Source: a virus. From it: a stretch of 22,361 bases of DNA. The translations under genes were made by a program, and so were the position numbers. Shown here piece by piece: positions 7,654-13,490 of the stretch; position 1 is the first letter of the stretch; each line of letters begins with the position of its first letter. Where the stretch lies: IMG/VR virus record IMGVR_UViG_3300025880_001152, positions 1-22,361 of that record; one strand, 5' to 3'. The notes under the pieces are model-generated. The model did no database searches, was not told the origin of the DNA, and saw only the letters and a program-made list of their open reading frames with translations.

Positions 7654-8241
7654 ATGGAACATTTTGTAAGAATAACAATGGAAAAGCAAGAAGAACAAAA
7701 GTCACTTGACGAAAGTATTTTTGCAGAACAGGAAATGTACGAAACTGATCAAGGCGGTACAGTTTATCAGATTCCACTAGCTAGAAACTTATCTGAACAA
7801 GAAGCAGACGAATATGCAAACAAATTAGCAAATTATATGTTTGAACAAGGTTACCAAGATTTTGATATAGATATTAGTGCTGAAGGATTAGAAGAGAGCG
7901 ACGAAATAACATACGACGATGACGATGATTTTTATGAAGACTATGGTGTTATGTGGTATAACGATGATGATGTTATCGACGAAGCAGAATATCAAGGACG
8001 TAAAGTTAAACTTGGTAAGCCAATGGCAGGCGATGTTAAGAAGTTTAAAGTCTATGTAAAGAATCCTAAAGGCAATGTAGTTAAAGTTAACTTTGGACAC
8101 GGCGGAAGTAGTGTTAAAGGTAAGTCTATGCGTATTAGAAAAAATAATCCGGCAGCAAGACGTTCTTTCAGAGCAAGACATAATTGTGATAATCCAGGGC
8201 CAAGACATAAGGCACGTTACTGGAGTTGCAGAAAATGGTAA
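7654..8241 (+). CDS. Bipolar protein: acidic N-terminal half and basic Cys/His/Trp C-terminal module
   Basis: The 195-residue product has two halves of opposite charge. Residues 1-112 are very acidic, with five consecutive Asp at 88-92 and NDDD at 103-106. Residues about 114-195 are strongly basic, starting with GRKVKLGKPMAGDVKKFKV and ending with RSFRARHNC, NPGPRHKARYWSCRKW. His176, Cys178, His185 and Cys192 could bind a metal. I recall this C-terminal module at the end of otherwise different proteins in marine phages, so it is probably a portable domain with no assigned function. The gene has the strongest ribosome-binding site in the region. A DNA- or head-associated role is plausible from charge, but unproven. 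Confidence 0.85.
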   Translation: MEHFVRITMEKQEEQKSLDESIFAEQEMYETDQGGTVYQIPLARNLSEQEADEYANKLANYMFEQGYQDFDIDISAEGLEESDEITYDDDDDFYEDYGVMWYNDDDVIDEAEYQGRKVKLGKPMAGDVKKFKVYVKNPKGNVVKVNFGHGGSSVKGKSMRIRKNNPAARRSFRARHNCDNPGPRHKARYWSCRKW

Positions 8242-8567
8242 TGGTTAGAGAAATTACAGAAACTATGGACGTAGGTTTTGATTTAGTTGATGATACGTGT
8301 ATGCATATGCGTAATGATCCTAATTTTTACCGCAGAGAATACTTTCCTACTATTTCAAAAATTGCTGATATGCAACGTGAAGGTAGTAATGATAATCCTC
8401 AAAAAACAATAATGCCTATGATAGAAAAGGGCATGACAGATTATTGTAGTAAATATAATATTGCTGGACATCCAGACGATGTTTATAATAACGATCATCG
8501 TACTGCTATATACGATAAGATATATCAAGAAGAGATGAAAGCAATAGAAGAAGGCGACTATGCATGA
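8241..8567 (+). CDS. Conserved phage protein of unknown function
   Basis: I choose the ATG at 8241, which overlaps the preceding stop as TAATG, giving 108 residues (MVREITETMDVGFDLVDD). An ATG at 8235 is also possible. The protein is helical, Met-rich and soluble, with several charged aromatic motifs (FYRREYFPTISKIADM, DYCSKYNIAGHPDDVY). Its stop overlaps the next gene as ATGA, so the two are probably translationally coupled. I recall similar sequences in T4-like cyanophages and pelagiphages without a function. No catalytic motif is recognisable. Confidence 0.8.
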   Translation: MVREITETMDVGFDLVDDTCMHMRNDPNFYRREYFPTISKIADMQREGSNDNPQKTIMPMIEKGMTDYCSKYNIAGHPDDVYNNDHRTAIYDKIYQEEMKAIEEGDYA

Positions 8568-9919
8568 AACTCAGACACTTATTTGAAGAACGTAAAAAGA
8601 AAGTTGTTGCGGTTATGCCGGGAGGATTTCATCCCTTCCATCCTGGACACAAAAGTTTATACGACTGGGCAGTTGACACGTTTGGAAAACCTAATGTTTA
8701 TGTAGCTGCTACTGACGACACTAAGTCTCGACCCTTTCCGTTTGCTATAAAACAAAAATTAGCCGCTATGGCTGGTGTACCAACACAACGCTTTATACAA
8801 GTTAAAAGTCCTTTCAATGCGTTGTCGTATACAGGATTACTAAGTGATCCAGAAAATACTGCATTAGTATTTGTACGTAGCGAAAAGGATCAAACCAGTC
8901 ATCCTAAGCCAGATCAAATAAGAAAAAGCGATGGGCAAATGGGCTATATTATAAGCTACAATGGCGAACTAGAACACGGTGCAGATATGCATGGTTATAT
9001 GACATATGGTCCTACAATTGATTTTAACTTTAGTGGCATGGATATCAAAAGTGCTAGTGAACTTAGGGCAGCGTGGCCTGAAATGGATGAGGAGAAAAAA
9101 ATGAAAGCAGCAGAATTAATGTATCCGGGTAACGGCGACACTGCTAGTAAGTTGCTTAATAATGCACTCGGAGATCCAGAAGCACCTATAGGTGAAGCAG
9201 ACGAACAACCTGCTGAATCATATATAGTAAAACCAGGTGATACTATTTGGGCAATAGCTACTAGATTTGCTGATAGTAATTACGATGGTGACGTAAAAGC
9301 AGGTGCTAAAGATATTTTAGAACTTAACGGTATTAAAAATCCAAAATCTTTGCGCCCAGGACAAAAGTTAGAAATAGGGTATTTTATGGGGGGTATGAGT
9401 TCAGGAGCAACTAGAGGACTTCCGCCAGGTGGATTTAAGGCATATGAAGCAGAAGTAACACCAGGACAATCATTACCTAAACAAATTAAAGTAATTAAAA
9501 TGCCTACACCACCACAAGCACCTACTGGTCCAGATGGCACAGATGAAAATGGTACTCGAATTGGCACTACTCCAAAAGGCAATAGAAGTGTTGCAAGTGG
9601 AGCAGGAACATATATCTTTACGCCAAAAGGAAAATTAATGTTGTATATGACTCCAAAGATAGGTGGGTTACAACAAACACATAACATTGCTAAACAAACC
9701 GTTACTGTAAACTTTGGCACATCAGCACAAGGTACAACTATAGATCAAAAAGCAACTTATGATATGAGTGGCAAACTTATAAGTGGTGATAATACGTCAA
9801 TCAGAAGTGGTAATATGGGGGTAAGCATTGACAAAGACAAAGGATCAACAGTAGATTATAAAGTAGATGCAAATACAAAAGTTTCAGCAAACAGTAAAAC
9901 CGGTATAAAGGTAAATTAA
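8564..9919 (+). CDS. Mosaic protein: capsid-targeting-like leader, nucleotidyltransferase domain, LysM domain, beta-rich tail
   Basis: The 451-residue product is a fusion. Residues 1-9 (MKLRHLFEE) resemble the T4 capsid-targeting leader. Residues about 13-170 look like a cytidylyltransferase-fold domain: GGFHPFHPGH (20-29) carries the HxGH-type signature (HPGH 26-29), and SASELR (163-168) sits where the ISSTxLR motif is expected. After a linker, residues 219-271 form a LysM peptidoglycan-binding motif (SYIVKPGDTIWAIATRF to LRPGQKLEI). The remaining ~180 residues are Gly/Thr/Pro-rich and beta-repetitive, without a family I know. A nucleotidyltransferase joined to a LysM in a phage is unusual. 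It may act in the virion or periplasm during entry, or the enzymatic fold may be only a carrier. The start overlaps the preceding stop (ATGA). Confidence 0.85.
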   Translation: MKLRHLFEERKKKVVAVMPGGFHPFHPGHKSLYDWAVDTFGKPNVYVAATDDTKSRPFPFAIKQKLAAMAGVPTQRFIQVKSPFNALSYTGLLSDPENTALVFVRSEKDQTSHPKPDQIRKSDGQMGYIISYNGELEHGADMHGYMTYGPTIDFNFSGMDIKSASELRAAWPEMDEEKKMKAAELMYPGNGDTASKLLNNALGDPEAPIGEADEQPAESYIVKPGDTIWAIATRFADSNYDGDVKAGAKDILELNGIKNPKSLRPGQKLEIGYFMGGMSSGATRGLPPGGFKAYEAEVTPGQSLPKQIKVIKMPTPPQAPTGPDGTDENGTRIGTTPKGNRSVASGAGTYIFTPKGKLMLYMTPKIGGLQQTHNIAKQTVTVNFGTSAQGTTIDQKATYDMSGKLISGDNTSIRSGNMGVSIDKDKGSTVDYKVDANTKVSANSKTGIKVN

Positions 9920-10134
9920 TGTATTCAAGTATTGATGAACTTAAGAAACTTGCTGGTGTAAACGAATTTAAAGGTTACACAGAGTATACTCTTGAGAACA
10001 TAAGCGATGCTGCTAATTCAAACGCAAAAAAGATGCGTGATAAAAATATTAAGCCAGGTGACAAAGAATGGTTTGAACTTTGGTTCAGTTTGCCAGGTAT
10101 GACCGGCGTACCATTTAGAGGTCGTAAAAAATGA
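9919..10134 (+). CDS. Small protein with LAGV leader motif and a conserved WFxLWFSLP module
   Basis: The 71-residue product starts on a TAATG overlap with the previous stop. Residues 3-17 (SSIDELKKLAGVNEF) form a short amphipathic helix ending in a possible protease site (VNE), and the motif recurs as SDFAKLAGVTE in the protein at 12723-13490. The rest contains KPGDKEWFELWFSLPGMTG (about 47-65), a compact module I recall fused to various marine phage proteins, followed by a basic RGRKK end. No known fold can be assigned. Its stop overlaps the next start (ATGA). Position and motif sharing suggest that it belongs to the same protein set as its neighbours. Confidence 0.8.
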   Translation: MYSSIDELKKLAGVNEFKGYTEYTLENISDAANSNAKKMRDKNIKPGDKEWFELWFSLPGMTGVPFRGRKK

Positions 10135-11555
10135 GATTTTATGAACTAAATGAAGATGGCAGAATAGTAAAAGGTGTCAATACTACAGTTGATGTAGGAC
10201 CTAATGAAATACCAAAACAAGCAAAAAAGTTTGGTAACAGTGTTTCAAAAGACGGAGTTCCACCTACCTTAAGCAAAAAAACAAAAGGTAAATCTACAAA
10301 TGTTTTGTTCAATTTAGGTTTAGCAGAAAATATTTCAGTTGACACACTATATGAAAATGTGTTATACTATAGGCAAATGAAAGAAGACTTAGGCGAAATA
10401 GCACAGGCAACTGAAATATATATTGACATGGACGGCGTACTTGCAGACTTTTTTGGTGAGTGGGCTAAACTAATGGATAAAAAGCATTGGACAAAGATTG
10501 ATGATTTTCCAAATGCACTACAAAAAATTAGAGATACAGAACAATTTTGGTTAGAACTGCCAATACTTCCTCAAGCAAAACAATTACTTGCTCTTGTAAA
10601 ACAAGTAAAAGGTGAATACAATATATGTAGCACACCTTTAGCAGATGATCCAAAATCTGAGCCGCACAAGCGTGAATGGATTAAAAAGAACCTAGCATTT
10701 TTTCCGCCAAAAAATATACACATAACACATGACAAACCACAGTATGCAACACAGCAAGACGGCACACCTAACATATTAATTGACGATTACGGCAAAAACG
10801 TAGAAGCATGGGATGCCGCAGGAGGTACAGGGTTTAAATACAAAGATCATAAGTTTGAGCGTACAGCTAAAGATATTAAACAGCATATGCAAGAGCCAGT
10901 TAAAGAAGCATTTGATACACAGATTGATTGGGAAAAAGATCCTGAAGACCATGGCGATGGTGATGCATATATTGCATACATTGGTCGCAAAGAAGTAGGG
11001 ATTCAATATTTCTTTGAACCTATTAATGCAGGAGGCGTTATTCTACCTGGTTTAGATATAACATTTGAAGTGAATGGTGCTACTAAGAAAACCGGTGGTG
11101 GAGATGCAAGTACAATATTTGGTGCAGTAATCAATCACATTAAACAATTTATAGAACAACACAGTGAAATTGATGTTATACAATTTAGTGCAAGTAAAGA
11201 ACAAGGACTTTCACGTACACGATTATACAGTGCTATGGTAGATAAATTATCAAAAGGAACTGATTGGATAAATGCTAAAACCATATCTAAAGCAGATAAA
11301 AGTATAAAAGATGCAGACATGTTCAAACTTGTAAGAAGAAATGCTGTAAATGACAAAATGACGGGCATAGAAGAAAACTTTGCTGACGGTAAAAAAAAAG
11401 GTAAGAGTAGGCCCGGACGTGTTAAAAAGTCTGGAGCAAGCTGTAATGGCAGCGTCACAAGCCTAAGAAAAAAAGCAAAAAAAGCAAGTGGTGAGAAGGC
11501 TAAAATGTATCACTGGTGTGCTAACATGAAGAGCGGAAAGACGAAAGGTAAATAG
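10131..11555 (+). CDS. Mosaic protein with HAD-type 5'-nucleotidase-like domain and C-terminal Cys/His module
   Basis: The 474-residue product begins MRFYELNE, a candidate capsid-targeting leader with an LNE cleavage site. A basic linker (9-65) and a short helical segment lead to a HAD phosphatase domain at about 95-250: motif I DMDGVLADF (Asp99, Asp101), STP at 167-169 in the motif II position, and LIDDY (Asp218, Asp219) as motif III/IV. The layout is that of the deoxyribonucleotidase (NT5C) family. Residues about 262-400 are a second alpha/beta domain (DAYIAYIGRKEVGIQYFF) unknown to me. The tail (417-474) is highly basic with Cys438 and MYHWCANMK (459-467), a module I recall on many marine phage proteins. 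It may dephosphorylate nucleotides, but the packaging signals point to a virion or early-infection role. Confidence 0.85.
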   Translation: MRFYELNEDGRIVKGVNTTVDVGPNEIPKQAKKFGNSVSKDGVPPTLSKKTKGKSTNVLFNLGLAENISVDTLYENVLYYRQMKEDLGEIAQATEIYIDMDGVLADFFGEWAKLMDKKHWTKIDDFPNALQKIRDTEQFWLELPILPQAKQLLALVKQVKGEYNICSTPLADDPKSEPHKREWIKKNLAFFPPKNIHITHDKPQYATQQDGTPNILIDDYGKNVEAWDAAGGTGFKYKDHKFERTAKDIKQHMQEPVKEAFDTQIDWEKDPEDHGDGDAYIAYIGRKEVGIQYFFEPINAGGVILPGLDITFEVNGATKKTGGGDASTIFGAVINHIKQFIEQHSEIDVIQFSASKEQGLSRTRLYSAMVDKLSKGTDWINAKTISKADKSIKDADMFKLVRRNAVNDKMTGIEENFADGKKKGKSRPGRVKKSGASCNGSVTSLRKKAKKASGEKAKMYHWCANMKSGKTKGK

Positions 11556-11559
11556 TATT

Positions 11560-11838
11560 ATGAGAATATTAGAAATTTTATCTGAGAAAAAAGTTGAAAT
11601 GTGTCCTAAGGCTTGTTGCGGTGTTCCTGTAACAGAATGTACATGTGGACCTGACTGCAAACACTGTGATTGCCATGCTAAGAAAAAAGCAATGAAAGAA
11701 ACTACTATGGCTTCTAGTATTGCAACTAGTATTGGTGGAGGAAACGGCTTTGCTAGTGGCGGAATTGGTAGCGAACCTATAAAACGTGTAAACAGTGATA
11801 AACCGAAATCCAAGAAGAAAAAGAAAACAAAAGCATAA
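11560..11838 (+). CDS. Small Cys-rich protein with capsid-targeting-like leader
   Basis: The 92-residue product starts MRILEILSE, very like the T4 Alt and IPIII leaders with a possible LSE cut. Immediately after it come eight cysteines within 24 residues (Cys15, 19, 20, 27, 29, 33, 36, 38) plus His35 and His39, a density similar to metallothioneins and small zinc-binding proteins. The remainder is a Ser/Gly-rich stretch (SSIATSIGGGNGFASGGIG) and a Lys-rich tail (KSKKKKKTK). Removal of the leader would leave the Cys cluster at the new N-terminus. No known family is assigned. Metal binding is inferred from composition. Confidence 0.8.
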   Translation: MRILEILSEKKVEMCPKACCGVPVTECTCGPDCKHCDCHAKKKAMKETTMASSIATSIGGGNGFASGGIGSEPIKRVNSDKPKSKKKKKTKA

Positions 11839-11841
11839 ATA
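11834..11841 (+). promoter_or_regulatory. Possible T4-type late promoter (CATAAATA)
   Basis: CATAAATA differs from the T4 late box TATAAATA only in its first base. It overlaps the stop of the preceding gene and lies 17 bases before the ATG at 11859, which has a CGGAGAG ribosome-binding site. The leader would be very short, so the call is tentative. Confidence 0.3.
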
Positions 11842-11858
11842 TATATACGGAGAGTATA

Positions 11859-12350
11859 ATGCGGCACAATGAAATAAACAAAAAAGTTAATGAAGGCGGA
11901 CTAGGTGATTTAGCCCAAATGGCGGAACGAGATCACGAAGTGCAAATGGCACGAGCTGACCTATACAAAATAGCAAAATATGCAATCAAATTACACGAAA
12001 TGCTTAAAACTGTTTCTGAAGCAGAAGGCATAGAAGGATGGCAACAGAGTAAAATAACTAAGGCCGCAGATTATATTGGCTCTGTATATCATGCAATGGA
12101 TTATGACATGAAGTTTGCAGAAACTGCTGTTGCAGAGGCTAAAAAATCTTCGTACAAAGATGGGCTAAATGCTATGCTTGAGTCAAAAACTAAATCTAAA
12201 GTATGTAGCGAATGTGGTAAACCAAGTTACACTACACTTGACGAAGAAAAGCAAAAAGGCGTTGACGGCAAAGTATGCTGGAAAGGCTACAAGCGTATGG
12301 GCACCAAGAAAAAAGGTGGCAAAACAGTAGACAACTGTGTGAAGATGTAA
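11859..12350 (+). CDS. Modular protein with helical DHEVQMAR domain and Cys-containing basic tail
   Basis: The 163-residue product starts MRHNEINKKVNE, a weaker candidate leader. Residues about 23-88 are a helical domain (ERDHEVQMARADLYKIAKYA, then EGWQQSKITKAADYIGSVYH) that I recall repeated in many marine phage proteins of unrelated overall make-up. The C-terminal part has CSEC (Cys116, Cys119) followed by VCWKGYKRMGTKKKGGKTVDNC (Cys140, Cys160), another recurring basic module that may bind zinc through its four Cys. A CGGAGAG ribosome-binding site precedes the ATG. The function is unknown. The domain is widespread in T4-like phage accessory regions. The stop overlaps the next start as TAATG. 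Confidence 0.83.
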   Translation: MRHNEINKKVNEGGLGDLAQMAERDHEVQMARADLYKIAKYAIKLHEMLKTVSEAEGIEGWQQSKITKAADYIGSVYHAMDYDMKFAETAVAEAKKSSYKDGLNAMLESKTKSKVCSECGKPSYTTLDEEKQKGVDGKVCWKGYKRMGTKKKGGKTVDNCVKM

Positions 12351-12721
12351 TGCTTGTCCACGAAATATTTGACATTTTCAAAGGTAAAGAAAAAACTATC
12401 GGCGATGATCCACAATATAAAGGCTGGTTAAAAATTTATCTTAAGAATCCTGATGCCGCAGAAATGCACAAGGATCATAAAAAGTTTTTACAATATTTCA
12501 AACAAACCAATACTAATGAAAATTTTTTAGATAAAGTAAAGGGCGCATTTAGCTCTATGATGCCTGCAGATATGAATGACCTTGTTGCATGGGTGAACAA
12601 AAATTTACGAAGTAAAGGCACTCAGTGGATTTACAAAAATGTAGGTGAAGAATTTGGATCTAAACATTTTACTAAGTTTGACGTAGACAAAGCTATAAAC
12701 ATTGTGATGAAAAGAGGTTAA
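12350..12721 (+). CDS. Small helical protein with Alt-like leader
   Basis: I choose the ATG at 12350, which overlaps the preceding stop (TAATG) and gives 123 residues. An upstream in-frame ATG at 12275 would add 25 residues read through the previous gene. The new N-terminus, MLVHEIFDIFKGKE, is close to the first residues of T4 Alt (MELITELFDE). The rest is charged and helical, with no Cys pattern: KGWLKIYLKNPDAAEMHKDH near 24-43, a Trp-containing segment VAWVNKNLRSKGTQW near 79-93, and a basic end. No recognised family. It lies in the middle of the mosaic gene set and ends one base before the next ATG. Confidence 0.75.
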   Translation: MLVHEIFDIFKGKEKTIGDDPQYKGWLKIYLKNPDAAEMHKDHKKFLQYFKQTNTNENFLDKVKGAFSSMMPADMNDLVAWVNKNLRSKGTQWIYKNVGEEFGSKHFTKFDVDKAINIVMKRG

Positions 12722-12722
12722 T

Positions 12723-13490
12723 ATGACTGACTTTTATAAAATGAGCTCAATGATGAAGGACTTATTTCCTTCAACTCCTGAACAGGATAAACAAGCTCTT
12801 TTAAATATGGCAAACAATGCTCCTGCAGATATACCCCCAACTAAAGATTATATAAACGAAAGTACATCAGTACCTGAAGGATCAATGCCATTAGGTATTG
12901 ACAGTGTAAGCGACTTCGCAAAATTAGCTGGTGTCACAGAAACACAGAAAACAGGTAGTGCAGGACAAGCAAAAGGCAAAGATCCAATGCCTAAATTAAG
13001 CAAGCCTACAGCAGGAAATGAAACACCTCATCCTTTAAAAGATAAACTAGTAGGCGAAGCCGATATAGATATAACAGCTCTTACACCTGCTGCAACTACA
13101 TTAGGTGGAGCAATTGATCCTGACATGGATCCTAGTGCTTTAATTGCAAGAGGCTTAAAGAAAGCCGGTGAAGGCGAAATATTAAACGACAAAGAACGAG
13201 CAGCAATACAACCGTATATAGCATTGTTTTCTGAATTAATGTCTAATCCAGCATTTAGAAACAATCTTATTGCTATGCAGAAGATATTAGCTAAAAAGAA
13301 TAAAAAGAAAGAAGAAGATGCTCCTCCAGGCAGAGAGAAGCAAGTCAAAAAACTGAAAAAGAAATTTGACGATCCTGGTGCACCCTATGCCATTGCGTGG
13401 GCACAGCACAATAAACATGGCAAGCCCAACAAAAAGACAGAATCGATCAAAGAAGAACTATATAAAGCACTCGCAAAATATAAAAAATAG
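12723..13490 (+). CDS. Low-complexity modular protein with internal LAGV motif
   Basis: The 255-residue product is rich in Pro, Ala, Lys and Asp and mostly disordered to the eye. Residues 61-73 (SVSDFAKLAGVTE) repeat the leader motif of the small protein at 9919. About 135-190 is a helical segment (DPSALIARGLKKAGEGEI, then SELMSNPAFRNNLIAM). Residues about 201-237 (PPGREKQVKKLKKKF, PYAIAWAQHNKHGKP) are a short basic module that I recall on other marine phage proteins. The tail is basic and helical. Possible IxE or LxE protease sites occur at several points. This could be a scaffold-like or internal head protein processed during maturation; no function is certain. Confidence 0.8.
   Translation: MTDFYKMSSMMKDLFPSTPEQDKQALLNMANNAPADIPPTKDYINESTSVPEGSMPLGIDSVSDFAKLAGVTETQKTGSAGQAKGKDPMPKLSKPTAGNETPHPLKDKLVGEADIDITALTPAATTLGGAIDPDMDPSALIARGLKKAGEGEILNDKERAAIQPYIALFSELMSNPAFRNNLIAMQKILAKKNKKKEEDAPPGREKQVKKLKKKFDDPGAPYAIAWAQHNKHGKPNKKTESIKEELYKALAKYKK

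Follow-up and report, generated by a model that had tools for sequence, protein, structure and literature searches.

A predicted head-cargo island with variant T4-type capsid-targeting leaders in a marine T4-superfamily phage

Introduction

Bacteriophage T4 places a short N-terminal leader on the otherwise unrelated internal proteins IPI-III and Alt. Positions 4 and 7 of the leader serve targeting and positions 8 and 10 serve processing, the S77 protease gp21 cuts after [LI]-x-E, and the cargo is basic and may include enzymes, as with Alt (PMC9026906). Here we describe a run of genes in IMG/VR record IMGVR_UViG_3300025880_001152, whose positions 1 to 22,361 constitute the stretch analysed here (the window). 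Similar to the T4 proteins, these genes join short leaders with a candidate cleavage site to unrelated, largely basic bodies, among them enzymes. The leaders are very probably a variant of the T4-type capsid-targeting sequence (CTS), and the run would then be an island of head cargo.

Several other phage systems resemble this arrangement in part. The ejection proteins of phiKZ and SPN3US carry propeptides that are removed by a gp21-like protease (gp175/gp245), and are packaged with the DNA and ejected; unlike the island leaders, many of these propeptides exceed 100 residues and most do not resemble the short shared T4 type (PMC5694885). The polyvalent proteins of tailed phages are multi-domain effectors delivered with the DNA, as proposed for the cargo here (PMC7824862), but they are described as single large proteins, whereas the island consists of many smaller cargoes with a shared leader. 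Cyanophage virions contain an NMNAT/cytidylyltransferase (T4-GC190), an S-adenosylmethionine (SAM) hydrolase and a kinase, and share with the island a homologous nucleotidyltransferase and tail modules. The cyanophage cargo leaders are of the full 10-residue T4 type, MKxFxxFLTE, while those of the clade described here are shorter. The accessible portions of the cyanophage virion papers (PMC10665884, PMC9602691, PMC3037559) draw no link to capsid-targeting leaders, and in the open-access literature the phrase 'capsid targeting sequence' and cyanophages co-occurred only in a T4 review; no open-access paper linking them was found.

The island also departs from T4. Its leaders span 8-12 residues with the core motif shifted by one residue, the genes form a conserved multi-gene island with multi-domain cargo and internal candidate sites, and island relatives show mimicry of the capsid N-terminus. 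Pfam and PHROGs gave no match to the IPI, IPII, IPIII or Alt bodies for any of the window bodies.

Results

Leaders in the window and in related contigs

The window is a marine T4-superfamily bacterial virus sequence with 34 genes. Among named phages, the jumbo T4-superfamily phages Sinorhizobium Phosso and Atu_ph07 have the family-B DNA polymerases most similar to its own, and a megablast of the window gave no nucleotide match to known or named phages. The original prediction named five adjacent genes with T4-like leaders, at 8564, 10131, 11560, 11859 and 12350, and all five N-termini are present in the sequence. The island features are as follows (slashes mark candidate cut positions).

8564..9919, + strand: 451-amino-acid gene; leader MKLRHLFE(E), HxGH nucleotidylyltransferase (NadD/NMNAT-like), LysM, C-terminal beta domain
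8564..8590, + strand: leader MKLRHLFEE; candidate cleavage following E8 or E9; modelled as disordered, the fold beginning at residue 13
9176..9214, + strand: disordered linker between nucleotidyltransferase and LysM; candidate internal cut PIGE/ADEQP (E211)
9431..9469, + strand: apparent fused leader relic FKAYEAE/VTPGQ; a separate gene in relatives, starting MKAYEITEAEVTPGQ
9919..10134, + strand: 71-amino-acid gene starting with a LAG box, SIDELKKLAGVNE/FKGY; the motif is also C-terminal in the clade gp22 scaffold
10131..11555, + strand: 474-amino-acid gene; leader MRFYELNE, NT5C deoxyribonucleotidase domain, basic two-Cys tail
10131..10154, + strand: leader MRFYELNE; candidate cut before DGRIV
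11364..11552, + strand: swappable tail module; junction TGIEE/NFADG, a hydrophobic-x-E site kept across unrelated fusions
11560..11838, + strand: 92-amino-acid Cys-rich gene; leader MRILEILSE/KKVEM; internal AMKE/TTMASS, related to the capsid-mimic module
11859..12350, + strand: 163-amino-acid helical gene; leader MRHNEINKKVNE/GGLGD; tail CWKGYKRMGTKKKGGKTVDNCVK also in the virion protein S-CREM2 gp160
12350..12721, + strand: 123-amino-acid gene; weak leader MLVHEIFDIF; relatives have MRIKELTNEGIFDF and MRVSEGIFDW
12723..13490, + strand: 255-amino-acid gene; internal LAG box DFAKLAGVTE/TQK, without an N-terminal leader

Taken by themselves, the 34 genes of the window show no leader similarity above chance. 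Therefore about 110 related marine contigs were gathered through the nucleotidyltransferase and the nucleotidase, and significance was taken from these relatives. The island was defined by synteny around the nucleotidase with N-termini ignored, giving 881 genes in about 140 families. The 136 families mostly confined to the island served as the test set and 629 other families from the same contigs as the control. The leader score was a position matrix built from island starts (consensus M-[RK]-[IF]-[FRY]-E-[ILF]-[IT]-E-E), with the entire homology group of the tested family left out. Held-out island families outscored the 629 others (area under the curve 0.73, p=4e-18), and their starts also scored above Met positions inside their own proteins (p=1e-31). 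Both p-values are indicative, since some families are singletons and full independence between families does not hold. The leader observation is confirmed: a short N-terminal leader shared by unrelated proteins, the mark of a CTS, distinguishes the 136 families from the 629. The leaders of the original prediction are real, and the island is larger than it had seen.

The five leaders differ in strength. The share of the 629 control families scoring as high was 0.003 for 8564, 0.006 for 10131 and 0.003 for 11560, all strong, 0.025 for 11859, a moderate leader, and 0.057 for 12350, which is weak. The cleavage motif [LI]-x-E expected at the leader end stands at 8564 (LFE), 10131 (LNE) and 11560 (LSE), is VNE at 11859 and is lacking at 12350. 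The bodies behind the leaders are unrelated, as originally proposed: a nucleotidylyltransferase with LysM and beta domains, an NT5C/HAD nucleotidase, a Cys-rich protein and helical proteins. The 8564 body has the NadD/NMNAT fold, and several island bodies are enzymes that retain their catalytic motifs. The nucleotidase of phage Melnitz has no leader and begins at the catalytic motif.

Within the nucleotidyltransferase family, residues 2-9 are 54% identical in pairs whose bodies are 24% identical, and every sequence of the aligned sample has E8. The body of the 11859 family starts after an invariant E; the leader before it varies in length, and the P3 residue is hydrophobic in 20 of 24 variants. 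For the 8564 protein, AlphaFold confidence is low over residues 1-11 and the first strand comes at residue 13; two more low-confidence linkers contain PIGE/ADE and KAYEAE/VTPG. The latter resembles the fused remnant of a gene that a relative encodes separately as MKAYEITEAEVTPGQ. For the 11859 protein, the AlphaFold model was of insufficient quality for use. Island proteins are basic (p=7e-7).

Simple or loose leader patterns were only about twofold enriched genome-wide, and a cut-site-anchored matrix lost signal when its seeds were left unfiltered (17 families reached p<0.05, where 8 were expected). A motif-free pairwise comparison of window gene starts was negative, a test unsuited to 8-residue leaders within one genome; it returned a strong separate leader in the Flavobacterium phage immuto. 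Around the head cluster of that phage (immuto_2-6A, contig L246), two different repeated leaders, MKKSQLRxIIKEEL and MENFDLKKFLVENKLTxNS, stand on unrelated genes.

Protease, module joints and capsid mimicry

The original prediction held that a genome lacking a gp21-type protease would speak against it. No S77 protease was found within the 22,361-base window, which is a fragment. In two close relatives, G045 and G043, whose DNA polymerases are 90% and 82% identical to that of the window, the S77 protease and the island lie on one contig, so that this condition did not refute the prediction. The protease has the GE-x-x-HP and GVSSRG motifs of T4 gp21, and its gene in relatives adjoins gp22 and gp23. 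The clade gp23 shows a conserved YL[SA]E/, equivalent to FLTE/ in T4, in each of 44 distinct propeptides, and the clade gene in the position of T4 gp67 starts MILRELF.

Two tests were independent of the N-terminal leaders. The first concerned the tail module NFADG...YHWCANMKSG, which occurs behind dozens of unrelated sequences. Pairwise identity per column rises from about 0.07 before the junction to about 1.0 from the E onward, and the E is present in 84 of 84 cases. Among 58 contexts, 45 have I, V, L, M or F at P3 (30% expected, p=1e-13), with neighbouring positions free. An invariant E and a hydrophobic P3 between free neighbours are the pattern characteristic of a protease site retained where modules join. 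The NFADG module was not found in named phages.

In the second, all other proteins were scanned, over 553,826 positions, with a matrix of the 16 residues that follow the gp23 site. The 19 best matches all lie directly after a Glu in island-type proteins; two of them (L202, L207) are outside the formal island set and of the same type. Of the top 40 matches, 23 follow [LIVMF]xE, against a 2% background. One example reads MLIREIFNRKVDE/TATAGATSAGAIATVV, compared with YLSE/TATAGATSAGNVATLN in gp23. Likewise, the 33 residues around the gp23 site of cyanophage S-SM2 match, genome-wide, only gp23 and SSM2_108, which reads MKTLKQFLKE/TPTNSVGNGGYTS in register with the S-SM2 gp23 (E=8e-12).

The LAG box terminates the clade scaffold gp22 and recurs in island proteins, including the 9919 and 12723 genes, whose LAGVNE and LAGVTE boxes resemble the scaffold tail; the LAG box may be a second address. 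In immuto, WQKLAGIIK forms the end of gp22, and RMQKLAGI opens another gene.

Published cyanophage virion proteomes

Mass spectrometry of CsCl-purified S-CREM2 virions detected a SAM hydrolase, an APH/ChoK-like kinase, an NMNAT-related cytidylyltransferase and several unknown proteins (PMC10665884). In GenBank the SAM hydrolase starts MKDFDSFLEE, the kinase MKRFDAFLTE and the cytidylyltransferase MKNFSSFLTE, and two of the unknown proteins start MKDLHSFLTE and MQTFSMFFSE. This is the layout of T4 IPII/IPIII, MKTYQEFIAE. In counts taken from listed N-termini over two 50-kb stretches, the strict T4 pattern was present in 5 of 19 virion-detected non-tail proteins and in 0 of 127 undetected ones (p=2e-5). 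The virion NMNAT of S-SCSM1 starts MKSFLQFLKE. The S-SM1 virion contains the T4-GC190 cytidylyltransferase (PMC3037559), and T4-GC190 orthologues start MKSFSQFLTE in P-SSM2 and MKSFFQFLSE in S-SM2.

The clade and cyanophage proteins are connected beyond their leaders. Virion-detected S-CREM2 gp160 has the same CW-GY...NCVK tail as the window, a second tail 71% identical to that of an island protein and, by eye, the gp23 mimic GFTGAAAPEGPVAGYDPLM. The clade member L197 matches S-CREM2 gp154 with E=9e-18, a homologous catalytic domain behind a leader. The window nucleotidyltransferase is more distant from the S-CREM2 protein (pairwise E=0.004), yet aligns with its clade. Another virion-detected S-CREM2 protein, gp12 (L255:7704-10313), is annotated as a Cas9-like nuclease and has an internal leader-like RFASFMAE/AAVD near its N-terminus.

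Neighbouring genes and other observations

One further feature covers two genes in the upstream part of the island:

7654..8567, + strand: upstream pair; phrog_7595 tail protein (RARHNCDNPGP...YWSCRKW) and a 108-110-amino-acid gene

The starts of the neighbours at 7654, 8241 (MVREITE), 9919 and 12723 do not fit the leader. Orthologues of the 108-110-amino-acid gene start MKIFEVTE or MKLFEFVED, and both upstream window copies are without a clear leader. For the 12350 gene, the mechanical open reading frame start is 12275; the ATG at 12350, which overlaps the stop codon of the gene before it, agrees with homologues.

Basic two-Cys C-terminal tails of window proteins recur on unrelated proteins: YHWCANMKSG (11364-11552), CWKGY...NCVK (12270-12344) and RARHNCDNPGP...YWSCRKW (8120-8238). 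One tail type occurs in virion-detected S-CREM2 gp160, and the tails form a second class of tag. Among relatives, an 871-amino-acid island protein (L158:11426-14038) combines a Pfam Annexin domain (E=7e-12) with a peptidoglycan-binding domain, unusual for a phage. A further run of leader-like genes (G011:84975-92639, L044) includes a protein with ligase-type KWDG and polymerase-beta-type nucleotidyltransferase motifs.

Just past the island, at about 13,840, the window and contig L001 pass from near identity to abrupt divergence (DNA polymerase 84% identical in DNA), a break that is either a recombination border or an assembly chimera. Checked for an assembly chimera, the window matches a contig from another sample almost perfectly up to about 13,840, beyond the genes described here.

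Discussion

The leader sequences and their relatives make it very probable that the window holds a cargo island whose leaders are a variant of the T4-type CTS. The original proposal of T4-type capsid-targeting tags is supported by the protease on an island contig, by the LxE site in 44 of 44 gp23 propeptides and by leader-bearing homologues in cyanophage virions. We infer that these proteins are present in the virion of this phage and are cleaved, retained and delivered into the host. The leader, approximately M[RK][IF]xE[ILF]xE, would bind the prohead core during head assembly, and the S77/gp21 protease would cut after [LIVM]-x-E. Mature cargo would stay in the head with the DNA; because the leader would load the proteins into the head, they would probably enter the host with the DNA. 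A number of cargoes look like fusion proteins that have additional cut sites where their domains meet. On some cargoes of the relatives, cutting would expose the same sequence as that of the mature major capsid protein. A fuller modular scheme is tentative, with somewhat less than an even chance of being right: the leader and/or the scaffold LAG box would act as address, polyproteins would be cleaved wherever an [LIVM]xE joint occurs, and the N-terminus thus exposed would copy the mature capsid protein, perhaps docking on the inner shell.

Several results weigh against the cargo reading. The strict T4 10-residue layout (hydrophobic 4, 7, 8; E10) is not enriched in the clade (3 of 136 versus 3 of 629 families, p=0.07), and because this test fails, the leader is filed as a CTS variant and not as a plain member. 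Just 43% of island families lie above the 95th percentile of the others, and the 12350 leader is without E at the site. Neither the immuto phage nor the examined T4 stretches showed the gp23 mimicry. Virion detection concerns cyanophage homologues and not this clade, and the cyanophage authors left co-purified contaminants possible.

The leader proteins could instead be prohead core or scaffold-like assembly proteins, degraded by gp21 or kept in the head, and not injected effectors; targeting would be the same and only the fate would differ. The gp67-position gene with its MILRELF start, the LAG box of gp22 and the many basic or helical bodies without a known domain fit such a role. Several bodies are, however, enzymes with their catalytic motifs retained, and homologues were detected in mature virions, so that we regard an assembly role as unlikely. 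A role as lysis or tail-associated peptidoglycan-binding factors would account for the LysM and PG_binding_1 domains in several island proteins and for the endolysin and spanin-like genes upstream in the window. We give it a very small probability, since the enzyme, capsid-mimic and scaffold-type modules would be out of place there and, in immuto and S-SM2, the homologous genes are found close to head genes. In immuto, an annotated NadR-NT5C pair in the same order lies about 9 kb from the terminase and head genes.

Start-codon context, with AT-rich genes favouring K, R, I and E near the start, is consistent with the roughly twofold enrichment of single-genome patterns and with the negative pair tests in the window. 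Chance of this kind is nevertheless largely refuted and retains next to no probability, as the starts of the 629 control families from the same contigs score far lower and the junction and capsid-mimic tests use no N-termini. It is also very unlikely that leader ends and tail junctions are recombination seams only, with E and a hydrophobic P3 having no protease role. Bodies and tails have clearly been shuffled, and their borders are sharp, but seams leave unexplained the hydrophobic P3 with free P2 and P4, the invariant E after variable upstream sequence and the sequence shared with the region after the gp23 cut. Chance, mere seams and a lysis role were thus weighed and rejected.

Relative to the open-access literature, the size and conservation of the island, the multi-site fused cargoes, the mimicry of the capsid N-terminus and the link to unexplained virion enzymes are new. 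NMNAT, kinases and SAM hydrolase in marine phage virions have so far been a puzzle, with contamination one alternative; the shared leader offers a mechanism and a sequence test by which injected proteins may be predicted from uncultured phage genomes. The leaders would also constitute a set of natural packaging tags. We infer for the NMNAT-like and nucleotidase enzymes a role in early nucleotide or nicotinamide adenine dinucleotide (NAD) metabolism or in counter-defence, and the delivery of such enzymes by these phages becomes testable.

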